From contig NZ_CP061498.1 in the NCBI RefSeq assembly GCF_014681765.1, positions 2,493,501 to 2,557,500 on the forward strand: DNA of 64,000 bases, in the 5' to 3' direction. Positions 19,022-28,852 of the stretch are shown in pieces. A program made the position numbers and the translations under genes. Below the pieces are notes generated by a model. The model had not been told where the DNA came from and made no database searches. It saw nothing but the letters and a program-made list of their open reading frames with translations. The stretch comes from Roseicitreum antarcticum. Lineage in GTDB: Bacteria > Pseudomonadota > Alphaproteobacteria > Rhodobacterales > Rhodobacteraceae. The stretch's first letter is position 1. Each line of letters starts with the position of its first letter.

Positions 19022-19660
19022 TTATTTTGTGCCAAACATCCGGTCACCCGCATCCCCTAGCCCGGGAACGATGTATCCCTGATCGTTCAGCCGGGTATCG
19101 AGCGACGCGGTGACGATGGGAACATCGGGATGCGCCGCTTTCATCCGGGCGACGCCTTCGGGCGCGGCCAGAAGGCACAGGAAGCGGATATTGGTGGCAC
19201 CGGAGGCTTTCAGCAGGTCGATCGCCGCGACCGAGGAATTGCCGGTGGCCAGCATCGGGTCCACGGCGATCACCAGACGCTCGTCCAGTTCCGAAGGCAG
19301 TTTGCAGTAATATTGCACGGGTTGCAACGTCTCTTCATCACGGTAGAGGCCGACAAAACCGACGCGGGCCGACGGGATGAGCTCCAATATCCCGTCCAGC
19401 AGCCCGTTGCCCGCCCGCAGGATCGACACCAGCGCCAGCTTGCGCCCCGCCAGCACCGGCGCATCCATTTCGCACATGGGCGTGTCGATGCGCCGGGTCG
19501 TCATGGCCATGTCGCGCGTGACTTCATAGGCCAGCAATTGGCTGATCTCGCGCAGAAGCTGGCGGAACACGGCGGTCGAGGTCTCGGCCTCGCGCATCAG
19601 GGTCAGTTTGTGCTGCACCAGCGGGTGCTCGACAATGGTGAGGTGCGGAATGGGGGTCAT
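19022..19660 (-). CDS. upp: Uracil phosphoribosyltransferase
   Basis: Converts uracil and PRPP to UMP in pyrimidine salvage. The 212-residue product has the conserved [15 protein letters not shown]-like N-terminal region (here [15 protein letters not shown]), [40 protein letters not shown] in outline, and the PRPP loop DPMLATGNS. It ends with ...[14 protein letters not shown], typical of Upp. It is the last gene of the cdd-deoA-deoB-add-upp operon and overlaps add by 4 nt. Confidence 0.96.
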
Positions 19661-20637
19661 GCGGAGGTCTCCAGTCGTTTCAGCAGCTTTTGCCGCGTGG
19701 CATCATCGCAGAACGCGGCATTTGCCGCCGTGAGGTTCAGGGCGCGCAGCATCGCATCGTCCCAGCCGAAGGTGCGGGACAGCTGGTCATATTCGGCGCG
19801 CAGGGAGGTATGGAAAAACGGCGGGTCATCGGTGGAAACGGTGACTTTCACCCCCGCATCCGCCAGCCGCGCGATGGGATGGGCGGCCCAGTCGGGGAAG
19901 ACCCCCAGCGCCACGTTGGAGCCCGGGCAGACCTCCAGCACAATGTCGCGCGCGGCCAGTTCGGCGACCAGCTTGGCATCCTCGATGGCGCGCACGCCGT
20001 GGCCGATACGTTCGACGCGCAGGTGTTCCAGCGCGTCGCGCACCGATTGCGGCCCGCCCCATTCGCCCGCATGGGCGGTCAGGCGCAGCCCGGCCTCGCG
20101 CGCCATGTCGAAAGCATAGGTAAAGTCACGCGGATGGCCCGCGGTCTCATCCCCCGCGATGCCAAAGCCGGTGATGAAATCGCCTGCGGTTTCCGCCGCG
20201 CAGCGCGCGGTTGCGCGGGCCCGGTCGGGGCCGAAATGGCGGATGCAGGTGACGATGCCGCGCAGGGTGATGCCGTGGCGTGCCTCGGCCATCGCGGCGG
20301 CCTCTTGCATCGCGTGCAGGTATTCGCGCCACGCGCCCAGGTCGCCGCCGCCACAAAAATCGGGCGACAGGAATGCCTCGGAATAGACCACGCCTTGCTG
20401 GCTGGATTGTTCCAGGACCGCCAGCGTCAGGCGGTGAAAGTCCTCAGGGGTTTGCAAGACGGTGCACGCGGCCTCGTACACCTTCAGGAATTGCCAGAAA
20501 TCGGTGAAGACGTAGTTGCCGGCGGCGTCGAACACCCCGGCCAGATCGACATGTTTTTCCTGTGCAAGGCGGCGGATGAAGGCGGGCGGTGCCGCGCCTT
20601 CCAGATGCAGGTGCAATTCGACTTTCGGCAATGTCAT
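19657..20637 (-). CDS. add: Adenosine deaminase
   Basis: Deaminates (deoxy)adenosine to (deoxy)inosine. The 326-residue product from ATG 20637 has the metal ligands in [11 protein letters not shown] (His9, His11), the HAGE motif near residue 190, the SHGVR-equivalent GHGVRA, and the catalytic STDDPPFF near 265. The start was chosen because it begins directly at the family N-terminus (TLPKVELH) and overlaps the deoB stop by 4 nt; the upstream in-frame extension lies inside deoB. Also possible is an adenine-deaminase-type specificity within the same family. Confidence 0.92.
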
Positions 20638-21818
20638 AGCAGGTTTTTCCCCGGTCCAAGGTTTTCCACCGACAGGTGGGCCGCGACCGTGGCGGCCACA
20701 TCGGCAAAGGCGCACAGGCCCAGCGGTCCGGTGCCCGCGCCCGCGATCAGCACGGGCACACGTTCGCGCGTGTGGTCACTGCCGGGTGCGGTGGGGTCGT
20801 TGCCGTGATCGGCGGTAAAGATCACCAGATCGCCGGGCTGCATCCGTGCCAGCACCTTGCCCGCGACGGTGTCAAACCAGCGCAGCGCGCGGGCATAGCC
20901 CGCCACGTCGCGCGGGTGTCCGTAGAGCGAGTCGAATTCGACGAAATTCGCAAATGTCAGGCTGCCGGGTTCGGCATTGTCCATCAGGGCGATCAGGTGG
21001 TCGGCCAAGGCGGCGTCATCCGCGCCCTTGTGCGTCTTGGTTATGCCATGGCCTGAGAAGATGTCGCCGATCTTTCCCACCGCATGCACTGTCCGCCCCG
21101 CCTTGTGCACCCAATCGCACAGCGTGGGCTGCGGCGGCGCGATGGCATAGTCACGGCGGTTGCCGGTGCGTTTGAAGCCAGCCTCGGCATCGCCTACGAA
21201 CGGGCGGGCGATGACACGGCCCACGCGCTGCGCGTGCAGGCTGGGCGCCAGCGTTTCGCACAGGTGCAGCAGGCGCGACAGCCCGAAGGTTTCTTCGTGC
21301 GCGGCGATCTGGAACACGGAATCGGCCGAGGTGTAGCAGATCGGCCAGCCGGTGCGCATGTGTTCCGCGCCAAGCTGCGTGATGATCGGAACGCCCGCCG
21401 CATGGCAATTGCCAAGGGTGCCGTCCACCCCCGCAATCGCGCAGAGCTGCGCCATCAGGTCGGCGGGGAAGGCAGGTTGCGTGCGGGGGAAATAGGTCCA
21501 GTCCCAGGGCACCGGCACGCCCGCAAGCTCCCAATGGCCCGAGGGGGTGTCCTTGCCGCGCGATACCTCGGTCGCGGCGGCCCAGCGGCCCGTGGGCGTG
21601 GCATCCAGCCCCGCAGTCAGTTCGGGCGCGCTGTCGCTTGATGCCAGCCGCAGCGCCGCGCCAAGGCCCAGCCCGTCCAGCACCGGCAGATGCAGCCCGC
21701 CGGGTGTGGCGACGGCGATATGGGCAACGGTATTCGCCCCCGCATCGCCGAACGCGTCCGCATCCGGCGCGCCGCCGATCCCGACCGAGTCCATGACGAT
21801 GAGGAATGCGCGGGTCAT
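20634..21818 (-). CDS. deoB: Phosphopentomutase
   Basis: Interconverts (deoxy)ribose 1- and 5-phosphate, linking nucleoside phosphorolysis to central carbon metabolism. The 394-residue product is an alkaline-phosphatase-superfamily enzyme: N-terminal [18 protein letters not shown] with a metal Asp and a nearby GANT motif, a cap domain, then [18 protein letters not shown] near the C-terminus with the Asp/His metal ligands. ATG at 21818 overlaps the deoA stop (TGATG). Confidence 0.96.
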
Positions 21819-23323
21819 CAGATCACCTGTTCCAGAATGAGGGCGGGCGTCGCGGGTGGTGTGCTGGCCAGACGGGTTGCGGCCTGTACCGCTGCCACGG
21901 CACGTTGGCCTGCGTCATGGCGGGCGGCGTGGACAAAGGCAAGGGGGTCGCCGCGTTCCACCCATTGGCCCAGCCGGGCAATGGCGCTGATGCCCACCGC
22001 GGGGTCGATCCGGTCGCCGGGCTGGGTCCGCCCGCCGCCCAGTGCCACCACGGCGCGGCCCAGCGCGGTGCCGTCGATGGCCGTGACATAGCCCGGCGCC
22101 GGGGCGGGCACGGGCAGGATCACGGGGGCCGTGGGCAGAAGATCTGGCGCAAAGACATCCCCCCGCCCGCCCATGGCGCGCACCATGGCGGCAAAGCGTT
22201 CCGCCGCGCGTCCGCTGGTCAGCGCAGCGCGCAGGCGGTCGGCGCCGCTGGCGCCATGGGGCGTGCCCGTCTGTGTGGTGTGCCCGCGCGCTTTCGTGTC
22301 GCCCGTTGCTGCTTTGCCCGTTGCTGCTTTGCGCGTCAATGCGCCGCCTGCCGCCGATGCACCGCTGCCGCCGGGCGTCCGGGCGTCCCGCGCGGCCCCG
22401 TCCAGCAGCGCACCGCCAAGGGCCACGGTCAGGTCGATCAGCGGGCAGGGCGCGGGGTCGCGCAGCAGGCGCAGCACCTCGGCCACCTCCAGCGCGTTGC
22501 CCATGGCGGGGGACAGGGGTTGGGACATGTCGGTGATGCACGCGGTGGTCGGGCAGCCCGCGCCCTTTGCCGTATCCACCAGCGCGCGGGCCAGGATGCG
22601 GGCGCCGGGCAGGTCTGCCGCAAACGCCCCCGCGCCGCATTTCACATCCAGGATCAGCCCGTCCAGCCCGGCGGCCAGCTTCTTTGACAAGATCGAGGCG
22701 GTAATCAGGTCGATGCTGTCCACCGTCCCGGTTACGTCGCGCAGCGCATATAATCGCCGGTCGGCGGGGGCGATGGAGTCGCTGGCGGCAACGATGGCGC
22801 AGCCGTGGTCGCGCACGATCTGGCGGAATGCCTCGGTCGGTTGGTCGGTGCGCAGGCCGGGGATCGCGTCCAGCTTGTCCAGCGTGCCGCCGGTATGACC
22901 CAGCCCCCGCCCCGAGATCATGGGCACATAGACCCCACACGCCGCCAGCGCCGGGGCCAGCAGCAGCGACACGGTATCACCGACGCCGCCGGTCGAATGC
23001 TTGTCCAGCACCGGCCCCGGCAGATCCCAGCGCAGCACCTGCCCGCTGTCGCGCATGGCGGCGGTCAGGGCGGTGCGCCCCGCGTCGCCCAGCCCGCGCC
23101 AGCACACGGCCATGGCAAAGGCCCCCGCCTGCGCATCGCTGACCCGCCCCTCCGTCAGCCCGGCAACAAAGTGGCGCAGCGCGGCGGCATCGGGGTGGAT
23201 GCCGCGCCGCAGCCCGTCGATCAGCGCGACGGTATCGGTTGGCGCGGGCCCAGTGTCTGGCCCATTGTAGGGCTCAGTGTCTGGTGCAGTGTCTGGCGCA
23301 GTGTCTGGCCCATTGTCGGGCAT
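21818..23323 (-). CDS. deoA: Thymidine phosphorylase with repeat-derived extension and internal insert
   Basis: Cleaves thymidine with phosphate. The 501-residue product is longer than the usual about 435-440. The family core is intact: [12 protein letters not shown] near residue 106, [16 protein letters not shown] near 137, [11 protein letters not shown] near 213. Two parts are extra. Residues 1-28 are a Pro-Asp-Thr-Ala repeat from a 12-bp DNA repeat, and residues about 308-361 are an Ala/Gly/Thr-rich insert that includes two copies of a 15-bp DNA repeat (22301-22330). The start could lie downstream of the N-terminal repeat (family homology starts near residue 31), but ATG 23323 is the one that follows the cdd stop directly (1-nt gap). 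Confidence 0.9.
22301..22330. repeat. 15-bp in-frame duplication inside deoA
   Basis: GCCCGTTGCTGCTTT twice, head to tail, encoding an Ala/Thr/Gly/Lys pentapeptide repeat in the internal insert of thymidine phosphorylase. Confidence 0.85.
23251..23322. repeat. 12-bp-based in-frame repeat in the deoA N-terminus
   Basis: CAGTGTCTGG-type units start at 23251, 23275, 23287 and 23299, with spacings 24, 12 and 12. They encode Pro-Asp-Thr-Ala-like tetrapeptides on the minus strand, covering the first about 25 codons of deoA. Confidence 0.85.
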
Positions 23324-23324
23324 G

Positions 23325-23738
23325 TCAGGCGCGGTCCATATGTGCCGGGGTGAAGGCGCCGGGCAAAAGCTCTGCCATGGTCATGGTCAGGGTGGCGCCG
23401 TCGGTGGTGGCCATGGTGACGTGCACATCCGCCGGGGCGAATTCCGACAGTTTCTGACGGCACCCGCCACAGGGCGGCACCGGCTGGTCGCTGTCGGCGA
23501 TCACGAAGACCTCGGCGATCTTGGTGTCACCGCCCGCGATCATGGCGGCGATGGCGCCTGCCTCGGCGCAGGTGCCTTGCGGATAGGCGACGTTTTCGAC
23601 GTTGCACCCCGCATAAACCGTGCCCGAGGCCGCGCGGATCGCCGCGCCGACCTTGAAGCGGGAATAGGGCACATAGGCTTTTTCCCGCACGGCGCGTGCC
23701 GGCGCTGCAAGGGGGTGTGCGGTATCTGGCTGGGTCAT
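23325..23738 (-). CDS. cdd: Cytidine deaminase
   Basis: Converts (deoxy)cytidine to (deoxy)uridine. The 137-residue product has the zinc site split as expected: TCAEA with Cys57 and catalytic Glu59, and PCGGC with Cys90 and Cys93. The upstream segment YAGCNVENVAYP is canonical for the homotetrameric type. It is the first gene of the salvage operon, followed 1 nt later by deoA. Directly upstream lies a 15-bp tandem repeat array (23791-23876), so the promoter must lie beyond or within it. Confidence 0.96.
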   Translation of the reverse strand: MTQPDTAHPLAAPARAVREKAYVPYSRFKVGAAIRAASGTVYAGCNVENVAYPQGTCAEAGAIAAMIAGGDTKIAEVFVIADSDQPVPPCGGCRQKLSEFAPADVHVTMATTDGATLTMTMAELLPGAFTPAHMDRA

Positions 23739-23790
23739 CGGAACCTCTGGGGGTTGGTGTGCGGTTGGTGAAGTTTGCGACCGCGCGCGC

Positions 23791-23876
23791 CAGACTGCAA
23801 GAGGCCAGACTGCAAGAGGCCAGACTGCAAGAGGCCAGACTGCAAGAGGCCAGACTGCAAGAGGCCAGACTGCAAG
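23791..23876. repeat. 15-bp tandem repeat, about 5.7 copies, upstream of cdd
   Basis: Unit CAGACTGCAAGAGGC, five identical copies from 23791, 23806, 23821, 23836 and 23851, plus a partial sixth from 23866. It begins 53 nt upstream of the cdd start, in the 268-nt gap between cdd and maeB. Perfect identity suggests recent expansion. Not a CRISPR: no spacers. Confidence 0.95.
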
Positions 23877-23959
23877 CGGTACATCGCAAGCAGCCTTTGG
23901 CCAAAGCAGATATAACTTGAAAGAATCCGCCCGAACGCGGTAACTGAAGAGTAACCGAT

Positions 23960-23977
23960 TAGTTTAATGCTAAACTA
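23960..23977. promoter_or_regulatory. Inverted repeat upstream of maeB, possible operator
   Basis: TAGTTTA-ATGC-TAAACTA, a perfect 7-bp inverted repeat with a 4-nt spacer, ending 29 nt before the maeB start. Its size and AT-rich arms suit a dimeric regulator (MarR-like operators look similar). The regulator is unknown. Confidence 0.5.
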
Positions 23978-24006
23978 CTTTCAGACGGCGATCCGGGGGA
24001 CCTTCC

Positions 24007-26286
24007 ATGACCGAACTGCGCAACGACAGCCTGCGGCAGGCAGCGCTGGATTATCACGAGTTTCCGCGTCCAGGGAAGCTGGAAATCCGTGCAACCAAAC
24101 CGCTTGCCAACGGGTTCGATCTGGCGCGCGCCTATTCGCCCGGCGTCGCCGAAGCCTGCCTGGAGATCAAGGCCGACCCCGCCGCCGCCACGCGCTATAC
24201 CGCGCGGGGCAATCTGGTGGCGGTGGTCACCAACGGCACGGCGGTGCTGGGGCTGGGCAACATCGGGGCGCTGGCCTCGAAACCCGTGATGGAGGGCAAG
24301 GCGGTCCTGTTCAAGAAATTCGCCAACATTGATTGTTTCGACATCGAACTGAACGAATCCGACCCCGAGAAACTGGCCGATATCGTCTGCGCGCTGGAAC
24401 CCACGTTCGGCGCGATCAATCTGGAGGACATCAAGGCCCCCGATTGTTTCATTGTCGAGAAGATCTGCCGCGAACGCATGGGCATCCCGGTGTTTCACGA
24501 TGACCAGCATGGCACGGCGATTGTCGTGGGTGCGGCGGCGACCAACGCGCTGCGCGTCGCGGGCAAGCGGTTCGAGGATATCAAGATCGTGTCCACCGGC
24601 GGTGGGGCGGCGGGCATTGCCTGCCTGAACATGCTGCTGAAACTGGGCGTGAAGCGCGAAAACGTCTGGCTGTGCGACATCCACGGTGTGGTCTACAAGG
24701 GCCGTGCGGTGGATATGAACCCGCAAAAAGCCGCGTTCGCCCAACCGACCGAGGCGCGCACCCTGGCGGATGTGATCGAGGGTGCGGACCTGTTTCTGGG
24801 CCTGTCCGGGCCGGGGGTGCTGTCAAAGACGCTGGTTGCGCAGATGGCGGCGCGGCCGATCATCTTCGCGCTGGCCAACCCGACCCCGGAAATCCTGCCC
24901 ACCGATGTGCGCGAGGTTGCGCCTGATGCGATCATCGCCACGGGGCGGTCAGATTTTCCCAATCAGGTCAACAACGTGCTGTGCTTCCCCTTCATCTTTC
25001 GCGGGGCGCTGGACGTGGGCGCGACCGAGATCAACGATGCCATGCAGATCGGTTGTATCGAGGGCATTGCCGCCCTGGCCCGCGCCACCACCAGCGCCGA
25101 GGCCGCAGCAGCCTATAGCGGCGAGCAACTGACGTTTGGCGCGGATTACCTGATCCCCAAACCCTTCGATCCGCGCCTGATGGGCATCGTGGCCAGCGCC
25201 GTGGCGCGCGCTGCGATGGAATCGGGCGTGGCGACGCGGCCGATTGCCGACCTTGCGGATTACAAGGCGAAGCTGGACGGGTCGGTCTTCCGCTCGGCGA
25301 TGATCATGCGTCCGGTGTTCGAGGCCGCGCGCGCGACCTCGCGCCGGATCGTGTTTGCCGAGGGCGAGGATGAGCGGGTGCTGCGCGCCGCCAACGCCCT
25401 CATCGAGGAAACGACCGAGGTGCCGATCCTGATCGGCCGCCCCGACGTGGTGGAAATGCGCTGCGAACGCGCCGGGCTGTCGATCCGTCCCGGCAAGGAT
25501 TTCCAGATCGTGAACCCGGAAAACGACCCGCGCTACCGCGATTATTGGGAAACCTATCACGGGCTGATGCAGCGGCGCGGCGTCACGCCCGACATCGCCA
25601 AGGCCGTGCTGCGCACCAATTCCACCGCCATCGGCGCGATCATGGTCCACCGGGGCGAGGCTGACAGCCTGATCTGCGGCACCTTCGGGCAATATCTGTG
25701 GCACCTGAACTATGTCACGCAGATCCTGGGCAATGCCGCCCGCCGCCCCGTCGGCGCGCTCAGCCTGATGATCCAGCCCGAAGGCAACATCTTCGTCGCC
25801 GACACGCAGGTCCACCCCGAACCCTCGCCCGAACAGATCGCCGAGGTGGTGATCGCGGCGGCGCGGCATGTGAAGCGCTTTGGCCTCGACCCCAAGATCG
25901 CGCTGTGTTCGCATTCGCAATTCGGCAACCTCGACACGTCATCGGGGCGGCGGATGCGCGGGGCGCTGGAAATCCTGGATCAGACGCCACGGGACTTCGC
26001 CTATGAGGGGGAAATGGCGGTCGATATCGCGCTGGACCCCGAATTGCGCGCCCGGATCTTCCCCAATGCCCGGTTCGATGGGGTGGCCAATGTGCTGGTC
26101 TTCAGCTCGACCGACGCGGCCAGCGGCGTGCGCAACATCCTGAAGATGCGCGGCAGCGGGCTGGAGGTCGGCCCGATCCTGATGGGCATGGGCAATTCGG
26201 CGCATATCGTCACGCCGTCGATCACCACGCGGGGGCTGCTGAACATGTCCGGCTTGGCCGGTACGCCGGTGGCGCATTACGGATAA
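24007..26286 (+). CDS. maeB: NADP-dependent malic enzyme (malic + phosphotransacetylase-like domains)
   Basis: Oxidatively decarboxylates malate to pyruvate. The 759-residue MaeB type: residues about 1-430 are the malic enzyme ([35 protein letters not shown] in outline, [12 protein letters not shown](P)-binding [13 protein letters not shown]), and about 430-759 are the phosphotransacetylase-like regulatory domain. In this class the PTA domain binds acetyl-CoA as an allosteric effector and is not normally catalytic. It is divergent from cdd, with a candidate operator just before the start. The gene is fully intact. Confidence 0.95.
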
Positions 26287-26404
26287 CGCGCCAGCGCAGG
26301 GGAATCTTTGCGGTTGCGCTACCACGCGGCGGTGTTGGCGCAATATTCTTGCTTGGGGGCAGGTCAGGGCGTAACAGGGCTCCAATTCAGGGATGGAGAT
26401 ATGA

Positions 26405-28294
26405 ATGCGTTACGCGGATCTTTACGCGCGGTCGATCGCCGACCGTGATGGTTTCTGGATGGATCAGATCGGCGCGATCGACTGGGTGACGCCACCGTCC
26501 AAGGCGTTGTTCGATGACGCAGCCCCCTTTTATGCATGGTTCCGCGACGCGCAGGTCAATACTTGCTGGAACGCGGTGGACCGGCATGTGTTGGCCGGGC
26601 GCGGCGATCAGACTGCAATCATCCACGACAGTCCGATGACCGGCACAACCACCCATATCAGCTATGCCGACCTGCAAGGCCGCGTTGCGGCACTGGCGGG
26701 GGCGCTGGCCGCGCGCGGCGTGGGGTTGGGCGACCGCGTGGTGATCTACATGCCGATGATCCCCGAGGCGCTGGTGGCCATGCTTGCCTGCGCGCGCATC
26801 GGCGCGGTGCATTCGGTGGTGTTTGGCGGGTTTGCCGCGCATGAACTGGCCACCCGGCTGAACGACGCGCAGCCAAAGGCGGTGATCGCCGCCTCCTGCG
26901 GGTTGGAACCCGGGCGCGTCGTGGCCTATAAACCCCTGCTGGATCACGCGATTGCCGAGGCGACGCACAAGCCAGATTTCATCATCATCTTCCAGCGCGA
27001 TGCCGCCACCGCCACGTTGCGCGACGGCTATGACCTTGATTGGTACGCGGCGCAGGACGGCGTGCCCCCGGCGGATTGCGTGCCGGTCAGCGGCGATCAT
27101 CCGGCCTATATCCTCTATACCTCGGGCACGACGGGGCAACCGAAGGGCGTGGTGCGGTCCACCGCCGGGCATCTGGTCGCGCTGGCCTGGAGCATGAAGA
27201 ACCTCTACGGCGTCAACCCGGGCGAAGTGTTCTGGGTCGCGTCCGATGTCGGCTGGGTCGTGGGGCACAGCTACATCTGCTATGGCCCGCTGATCCACGG
27301 TGCGACCACCGTGGTATTCGAGGGCAAGCCGGTCGGCACCCCGGATGCGGGCACCTTCTGGCGGGTGATTTCCGACCACAAGGTTGCCAGTTTCTTCACT
27401 GCACCCACGGCGTTCCGCGCCATCAAGCGGGAGGATCCGCAGGGCCTTTTGGTGCAGAATTATGACCTGTCATCGCTGCGCTGCCTGTACCTTGCCGGCG
27501 AACGCGCCGACCCTGATACCGTGATCTGGGCGCAAGAAAAGCTGGGCGTGCCGGTGATCGACCATTGGTGGCAGACCGAAACCGGCTGGGCCGTGGCGGG
27601 CAACCCGATGGGTCTGGACCCGCTGCCGGTAAAGATCGGCTCGCCCTCGGTGCCGATGCCGGGGTATGAGATCCACATTCTGGATGAGGCCGGGCACAAG
27701 GTTCCCGCGGGCACGCTGGGCGCGATTGCCATCAGGCTGCCGCTGCCGCCGGGCACCCTGCCGACGCTGTGGAATGCCGATGCGCGGTTTCAGACATCCT
27801 ACCTGACGACCTTTCCGGGGTATTATGAGACGGGGGACGCCGGGTATCTGGACGATGACGGCTATATCTACATCATGGCGCGCACCGATGATGTCATCAA
27901 CGTGGCGGGCCACCGCCTGTCCACCGGCGGGATGGAAGAGGTGCTTGCCGCCCATCCCGATGTCGGCGAATGCGCAGTAGTTGGGGTGGCGGATGATCTG
28001 AAGGGTCAGGTGCCCATGGGCTTCTTGTGCCTGAACAGGGGCGTGACCCGTGATGCCGCCGAGGTGGTGAAGGAATGCGTGGCGCTGGTACGCGACCAGA
28101 TCGGCCCCGTCGCGGCGTTCCGTCTGGCGGTGGTGGTAGACCGCTTGCCAAAGACCCGGTCGGGCAAGATTCTGCGCGCCACGATGGCAAAAATCGCCGA
28201 TGGTGTGGCCTTCAAACCACCCGCGACGATTGACGACCCGGCGATTCTGGATGAGATTGCCACTGCACTGCGGGCGCTGGGCTACCCGAAATAA
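26405..28294 (+). CDS. prpE: Propionate-CoA ligase (propionyl-CoA synthetase)
   Basis: Activates propionate (and perhaps acetate) to its CoA thioester through an acyl-adenylate. The 629-residue product is a member of the ANL superfamily: YILYTSGTTGQPKGVVRST is the P-loop-like motif A3 in outline, WWQTETG is motif A5, YETGDAGYLDDDGY is A7, and a C-terminal TRSGKIL with the catalytic Lys is A10. The N-terminus (YADLYARSIADRDGFW, then NTCWNAVDRHV) is of the PrpE rather than Acs type. Start ATG at 26405, preceded by GGATGGAG. No prpBCD genes are near, so propionate may feed the methylmalonyl or ethylmalonyl route. Confidence 0.9.
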   Translation: MRYADLYARSIADRDGFWMDQIGAIDWVTPPSKALFDDAAPFYAWFRDAQVNTCWNAVDRHVLAGRGDQTAIIHDSPMTGTTTHISYADLQGRVAALAGALAARGVGLGDRVVIYMPMIPEALVAMLACARIGAVHSVVFGGFAAHELATRLNDAQPKAVIAASCGLEPGRVVAYKPLLDHAIAEATHKPDFIIIFQRDAATATLRDGYDLDWYAAQDGVPPADCVPVSGDHPAYILYTSGTTGQPKGVVRSTAGHLVALAWSMKNLYGVNPGEVFWVASDVGWVVGHSYICYGPLIHGATTVVFEGKPVGTPDAGTFWRVISDHKVASFFTAPTAFRAIKREDPQGLLVQNYDLSSLRCLYLAGERADPDTVIWAQEKLGVPVIDHWWQTETGWAVAGNPMGLDPLPVKIGSPSVPMPGYEIHILDEAGHKVPAGTLGAIAIRLPLPPGTLPTLWNADARFQTSYLTTFPGYYETGDAGYLDDDGYIYIMARTDDVINVAGHRLSTGGMEEVLAAHPDVGECAVVGVADDLKGQVPMGFLCLNRGVTRDAAEVVKECVALVRDQIGPVAAFRLAVVVDRLPKTRSGKILRATMAKIADGVAFKPPATIDDPAILDEIATALRALGYPK

Positions 28295-28432
28295 TGCTGA
28301 CTTCTCATCATTCTTCCACATTTTTCTCGCGCTGTGGTTGAAAACAAATGTTTTTTCTGCTCCCCCCCTGATTGAGCACTTGGTTTTTGCAAGGGTGTTC
28401 GGTATCACTTGGCCAACCACAGTAGAGTTCCG

Positions 28433-28852
28433 ATGTCATCCATTTCCGATCATCACGCGTCCGATCGTACCGCTGCCGGTTCGTCAGATACCGGCCGTCA
28501 GCCTCCTTATGACCAAAAAACCCTTGAGGAACTGCTAAATCTCGGCGATGAGGCCATCGCCGCAGAGCTGCTTTCGCAGCTTCTGTCGGATTTTGAGCGT
28601 CTCAACGGCGTGATACAGGTCGGGGTCGAACCGCTGGATTTTGACGCGCTTGCGCGTGCCGCGCATGAACTGAAGGGGTTGTCCGCCACCATCGGGGCGC
28701 GCCACCTGACGCAACTGGCGGAATTGGTCAATGTTGCTGCCAATTCAAACAGCGCCCAACAGATCGCGGTTTTCGGCGGCCCGCTGCGGGTTGAGCTGGA
28801 GCGCGTGATCGTGCACCTGACGCGCCGCCGGGACCAGGCGAAGGGCGTCTGA
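28433..28852 (+). CDS. Histidine phosphotransfer (Hpt) protein, LuxU-like
   Basis: A 139-residue Hpt protein: a four-helix domain with the phosphorylatable His in ARAAHELKGLSATIGA (about residue 80), preceded by a poorly conserved N-terminus of about 30 residues. It should pass a phosphoryl group between a hybrid histidine kinase and a response regulator. It ends 2 nt before the sigma-54 activator gene, so the two form a pair like luxU-luxO of vibrios. Start ATG at 28433; an in-frame TTG at 28409 is less likely. Confidence 0.8.
   Translation: MSSISDHHASDRTAAGSSDTGRQPPYDQKTLEELLNLGDEAIAAELLSQLLSDFERLNGVIQVGVEPLDFDALARAAHELKGLSATIGARHLTQLAELVNVAANSNSAQQIAVFGGPLRVELERVIVHLTRRRDQAKGV

Follow-up and report, generated by a model that had tools for sequence, protein, structure and literature searches.

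In Haemophilus influenzae, the promoters of hmw1A and hmw2A contain 7-bp repeats whose copy number varies (PMC2424069, PMC2651432). More repeats are reported to result in less transcript, with exceptions (PMC2424069). The sigma70 promoter consensus described for Sinorhizobium is CTTGAC-N17-CTATAT (PMC2873474), and 17 nt is the commonest sigma70 spacer length among the species compared, including R. sphaeroides (PMC8407463). More than 60% of the analysed alphaproteobacterial sigma70 promoters are reported to have no T-7 (PMC8407463). The RpoH2 consensus is given as CTTGCC-N15-16-CCTATCT (PMC4843759).

The window, which is the whole stretch of 64,000 nucleotides of Roseicitreum antarcticum DNA that was analysed, contains a 15-bp tandem array in a 268-nt gap, with cdd and maeB divergent on either side. 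TRF assigns the array a period of 15, 5.9 copies, and 100% matches (23789-23876), and its score of 176 tops the 50 rows that the window yields at a minimum score of 30. Five perfect tandem units are no chance match, and the array described in a first-pass annotation of this DNA is real; the start given there, 23791, is the 23789 array read in another register. The distance of 53 nt to cdd given there is close, as the ATG (23738, - strand) is 50 nt from 23789 and 52 nt from 23791. One correction is needed: the gap that holds the array is common to cdd and the divergent maeB. On the + strand, the array is composed of five GCCAGACTGCAAGAG units and a sixth unit with one base changed (GCG for GAG), and each copy, counted on the cdd strand, has one TTGCAG (-35-like) box. 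Bacterial minisatellites (VNTR candidates) are near-identical tandem units of ~10-60 bp, and the array (15 bp x 5.9, 100%) is of this kind.

The gene identities proposed earlier for cdd-deoA-deoB-add-upp (19022-23738) are borne out by NCBIfam models, and gene order and overlaps suggest that the five genes form a single transcript. An imperfect 12/24-bp tandem array (77-79% matches) is located at 23245-23321, 467 nt from the cdd array, and encodes a (GPDTxPDT)-like N-terminal extension of DeoA. The features of the locus are collected in Table 1.

Table 1. Features of the cdd-maeB region, in window coordinates
Feature	Position	Strand	Basis
cdd, cytidine deaminase, first gene of cdd-deoA-deoB-add-upp	23325..23738	-	NF004064, TIGR01354 above cut-off
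Inferred 27-nt cdd leader with AGAGG Shine-Dalgarno-like stretch	23739..23765	-	From -10 position
Predicted -10 box CAAACT; A-11 and T-7 present; C at -12 as in 75/88 relatives	23772..23777	-	Matrix
17-nt spacer, first 6 nt (TCTGGC) from the repeat unit	23778..23794	-	Relatives' 17-nt peak, 84/118
Predicted -35 box TTGCAG, in the cdd-proximal repeat copy	23795..23800	-	Matrix built without the window, 24.7 bits
15-bp tandem array, 5.87 copies; cdd sense (CTTGCAGTCTGGCCT)x5 + CTTGCAGTCTGGC	23789..23876	-	TRF, units counted on the cdd strand
maeB, malic enzyme with phosphate acetyltransferase (PTA) domain, divergent from cdd	24007..26286	+	Pfam PF00390, PF03949, PF01515

The upstream region of cdd was compared among relatives. 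Eighty named loci with close cdd genes, nearly all from Rhodobacteraceae or unspecified Alphaproteobacteria (family inferred), were joined by further cdd loci drawn from family and class genomes, for 136 loci in total. A cdd match was present in 127 and absent from 9, and removing the window's own locus left 126. Exclusion of those with <200 nt upstream or with duplicate sequence gave 118 distinct relatives, in which cdd starts were inferred by tblastn extension. A divergent maeB start is found within 700 nt in 62 of these 118. One record, L075, is titled Enemella evansiae, and its cdd-maeB locus equals that of L003 (Rhodobacteraceae) in identity (78.1%) and in a spacing of 742; this points to a mistaken title or a contaminated assembly.

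When upstream regions with a divergent maeB within 300 nt are set side by side (50 rows, the window's included), CTTGCAT, 17 nt, and CAnnnT recur. The pattern TTGC..-N17-CA is present in 84 of 118 relatives, compared to 4-19 at 15 other spacers (10-25) and 9.4 in shuffles at spacer 17. The antisense strand also peaks at spacer 17 (41/118) because TTGC...GCAA is partly symmetrical. A matrix was refined on 88 of the 118 relatives with the window excluded; the other 30 yielded no element. In this matrix, C precedes TTGC in 85/88, and C-12 and T-7 each occur in 75/88, while TTGC and A-11 occur in 88/88, an invariance of TTGC and CA that is partly built in, since the seed pattern already contained both. 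At 85 of 86 scored sites, a start codon was assignable, at a median of 29 nt after the -10 end, a figure from which the script left out starts nearer than 15 nt.

The spacing, the CTTG box, and the A-11 position make this element most likely a sigma70-type promoter. By our count, its CTTG-to-A-11 register is that of the Sinorhizobium sigma70 consensus (PMC2873474). The window's own TTGCAG-N17-CAAACT likewise has a TTG-containing -35 and an A-11-containing -10 ~17 nt apart, as in alphaproteobacterial sigma70 promoters. The RpoH2 consensus is partly alike, resembling the family element in the -35 and, with N16, in the position of the A (PMC4843759). The frequent T-7 of the family's cdd -10 is in contrast to the >60% of promoters reported without it (PMC8407463). 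In its exact form, the element has no peak at spacer 17 in the genome of the window (4, compared to 1-7 at other spacers, in 464 kb), nor does TTGC..-CA...T in 457 upstream regions (8 at spacer 17 and 11 at 18). The looser TTG-N17-.A...T reaches 72, compared to 35-63 at other spacers, and its antisense control also reaches 63. CTTGCAT-N17-CAnnnT is a promoter candidate for cdd in this family, conserved and unusual.

The element is not confined to cdd: at spacer 17, 26 of 36 distinct relatives also have this CTTGC-N17 element before a cupin gene, compared to 0-3 at other spacers. The cupin identity comes from a Pfam Cupin_2 match in one relative (L079, element region 1704-1757), and the gene stands between maeB and cdd in some relatives. 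This occurrence favors a type of promoter over a nucleoside operator. In E. coli, the CytR boxes have the form GTTGCATT. In an operator reading, CTTGCA would be a regulator site that has been multiplied for tighter control by a nucleoside sensor. The likeness to CytR boxes fits this, and the partial symmetry of the family element (TTGC...GCAA, with its antisense peak) leaves room for a dyad-binding protein. CytR-type boxes would be expected only at nucleoside genes, but here the element is shared with the cupin gene. The conserved T-7 and the fixed 17 nt suit a promoter, and the 15-bp unit has no second place in the genome within 1 mismatch. An operator array is very unlikely on these grounds. 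A regulon of the repeat was also rejected, as no further genome site lies within 1 mismatch of the unit; elsewhere in the 4.25-Mb genome, there are only 13 single places, each with 2 mismatches.

On the maeB side of the gap, the dyad TAGTTTA-ATGC-TAAACTA is located at 23960-23977, 29 nt upstream of the maeB ATG. Of the 62 relatives with divergent maeB, 28 by a strict pattern and 43 by a loose one have a similar dyad no more than 90 nt from maeB, and the strict pattern was found 0 times in the cdd-side control and 0 times in one shuffle each. The dyad looks like a conserved operator.

Scored against the window, the matrix gives a single strong site, on the - strand (24.7 bits); none of 2000 mononucleotide shuffles reaches this score. 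No other position among 1,725,458 in the own-genome sample attains 24.7 bits, and 26 of 118 relatives score as high, none of them on the antisense strand. The distance from the -10 end to the cdd ATG is 33 nt, compared to the relatives' median of 29 nt. A simple scan of the region for consensus promoters and terminators of the E. coli type found nothing. By sequence comparison, the predicted promoter belongs to the family-wide promoter-like element; its -35 sits in the cdd-proximal copy of the array, and its -10 follows after 17 nt, outside the repeat in unique DNA. The proximal copy thus contains the -35 box together with 6 spacer nucleotides, and so the 15-bp unit is, on this prediction, cdd's own -35 region. 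The array is accordingly six tandem copies of the predicted cdd -35 region, with five -35-like boxes added upstream. These five TTGCAG copies score -7.4 bits or lower because there is no -10 at the right distance. If transcription starts at 23765, as the -10 position suggests (~7 nt past the -10, as expected of a sigma70 promoter), the array spans approximately -24 to -111 and would not be transcribed with cdd. The first-pass annotation had placed the array in a promoter or leader. The promoter half of this holds, given the overlap with the matrix site; the leader half is unlikely, because the array is upstream of the predicted start and so probably outside the leader.

The same annotation proposed that copy-number change could switch the operon by phase or dose variation. 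The intergenic region was built in a script with 0 to 8 units in addition to the terminal copy and rescored. For every state, the best score is 24.73, a single site exceeds 8 bits, and the distance to the ATG is 33 nt; only the number of TTGCAG boxes changes. In a phase-variable promoter repeat (contingency locus), repeat number would be expected to alter the -35/-10 spacing, but here this spacing is constant from 0 to 8 units although the repeat overlaps the -35. Whole-unit gain or loss leaves spacing and leader as they are, thus removing the usual route of a phase switch. Units of 15 bp are also long for high-frequency slippage. A phase switch, in which copy-number change would turn the operon on or off, draws on the perfect repeats that adjoin the operon start, but with score, spacing, and leader constant it is highly improbable, and this part of the proposal is not upheld.

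The array is probably a recent multiplication of the conserved -35 region of cdd, in which copy number is no switch and the extra boxes are neutral or a weak modulator. Replication slippage or unequal exchange would have multiplied the -35 region. In the distal copy, CG precedes CTTGCAG, compared to CT in the inner copies, which may reflect a first duplication, then one base change, and then re-expansion of the changed copy. RNA polymerase would use only the proximal copy, since none of the five TTGCAG boxes farther upstream is followed by a -10 at workable spacing. Units could be gained or lost, down to one copy, without touching the -35/-10 spacing or the leader. Changes in unit number would then leave the core promoter intact, so that copy number would not turn the operon on or off, and expansion would be tolerated because the core promoter is untouched. 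The extra boxes would be neutral or, at most, modulate weakly, either as decoys for polymerase or by moving upstream DNA 15 bp away with each unit.

The first-pass annotation inferred a recent expansion from the perfect identity of the units, and the comparison with relatives agrees. No comparable array was found upstream of cdd in the 126 relatives, where the next-best TRF score is 57, compared to 176. The stretch searched in each was the gap to maeB if a divergent start lay within 700 nt and 350 nt otherwise. A two-unit probe (<=3 mismatches) was run on 394 family genomes sampled evenly from a larger group; it matched one, the window's own, and none of the other 393. An inherited array was rejected: the closest second copy of the relatives' -35 region, sought up to 45 nt upstream, differs at 4 of 15 positions, in a search that skipped sites with <40 nt upstream. 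The relatives have no excess of further TTGC upstream of the -35 (28 of the 86 sites, compared to 24 in the control stretch). A mobile or plasmid origin was also rejected, with no exact two-unit match in viral contigs and one irrelevant plasmid record.

The unit length of 15 nt keeps a reading frame, and the array could in principle encode (ARLQE)n on the + strand or (SLASC)n on the - strand. The + frame is open from a GTG at 23759 for 53 codons, and the - frame is open as a TTG ORF at 23527-23904 (125 aa). The - ORF, however, overlaps cdd out of frame, and the + ORF runs antisense to cdd's promoter. No comparable array was found in the stretch searched upstream of cdd in the relatives. The sole plasmid record matched is an Acaryochloris pentapeptide-repeat gene with a 74% match to a 15-nt period. 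A coding array is hardly credible. An RNA element was rejected: in 20000-28500, no Rfam family reaches its gathering score, and the fold z-score is -0.55.

The background of tandem arrays was taken from 864 kb of the own genome (the window and 40 stretches), which contains 101 merged arrays with a TRF score of at least 50. With crude ORF calls, 74 are inside called ORFs, 22 are intergenic, and 5 are partial. As the 7th of the 101 by score, the cdd array does not stand out as a tandem repeat in this genome, though it is first among the 22 wholly intergenic ones. Other strong arrays are found at L197 19736-19900 (25 bp x 6.6, 98%), L189 2495-2590 (15 bp x 6.4, 100%), and L165 6398-6524 (18 bp x 7.1, 95%). 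Arrays with at least 3.5 copies and at least 90% match number 12 in 800 kb without the window, compared to 0 in 400 kb of six other family genomes (binomial P 0.012), by a cut chosen after the own-genome list had been inspected; the units are only 5 or 6 bp long in 2 of the 12. At a score of >=70, the own genome (800 kb) and the relatives (400 kb) have 33 and 10 arrays (binomial P 0.20), at >=100 they have 12 and 4, and at >=150 they have 8 and 3, and by score alone the own genome is hardly richer in arrays than its relatives. High-copy arrays are thus frequent in this genome and strong-by-score arrays are not, which makes neutral slippage the default. The active maintenance once suggested for the perfect units is unneeded: similar arrays occur elsewhere in the genome, mostly inside called ORFs, and where tandem expansion is not rare, the array needs no special maintenance.

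A graded effect on transcription has more in its favor than a switch. Each added -35-like box, or each 15 bp (1.4 helical turns), might alter polymerase recruitment, and unit number would then dose the salvage operon. The array overlaps the predicted promoter, its identical units are in principle gainable and losable, and the 7-bp repeats at Haemophilus hmwA provide a precedent (PMC2424069). Against this, cdd is a metabolic gene, and most of the sampled arrays (74/101) are inside called ORFs, so a promoter position need not be selected. Such dosing is unlikely. It is somewhat less likely still that the locus is a natural multi -35 promoter, in which a fixed -10 and six near-identical -35 boxes at 15-bp intervals, drifting in number with the core intact, make up a rheostat that would set nucleoside salvage through polymerase recruitment, with spacing and frame playing no part.

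With the favored reading, a recent multiplication of the -35 region, what was an anonymous repeat becomes a defined object: predicted -35 boxes in a natural series before one -10. If copy number affects output, the locus would offer a clean natural experiment on the way added -35 boxes change a promoter. If copy number is without effect, it would show that tandem expansion on a promoter box can be harmless.

Among the literature matches listed, which came from coarse terms and do not speak for all that is in print, there is no bacterial tandem -35 array of this sort. The described systems each share a part of it. The repeats of hmw1A/hmw2A are, like the cdd array, tandem repeats in a promoter region (PMC2424069, PMC2651432), but these genes encode adhesins, and the cdd array has a 15-bp unit carrying the -35 box and precedes a metabolic operon. 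The (TA)n of Haemophilus hifA/hifB is also located between divergent genes at promoter boxes; it is proposed to alter -35/-10 spacing, whereas the cdd array leaves the spacing the same (PMC2651432). The Sinorhizobium sigma70 promoter shares the CTTG box and the A-11 register with the cdd element, which differs in its -35 (TTGCAT/TTGCAG) and in a -10 of CAnnnT with C at -12, and the window differs further in its six -35-like boxes (PMC2873474). E. coli promoter islands, as described, also have several promoter-like signals near one gene, but the boxes of the cdd array are identical, in an exact tandem array, and share one -10 (PMC3661553). The cdd array resembles neutral bacterial minisatellites (VNTR loci) in that its unit is short and perfect, it is lineage-specific in the sample, and it is one of several arrays in its genome; unlike them, it multiplies a promoter box. 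The cdd array is a promoter-overlapping minisatellite whose unit carries a predicted -35 box, and a chance expansion, or at most a fine-tuning role, is more probable for it than an on/off switch.
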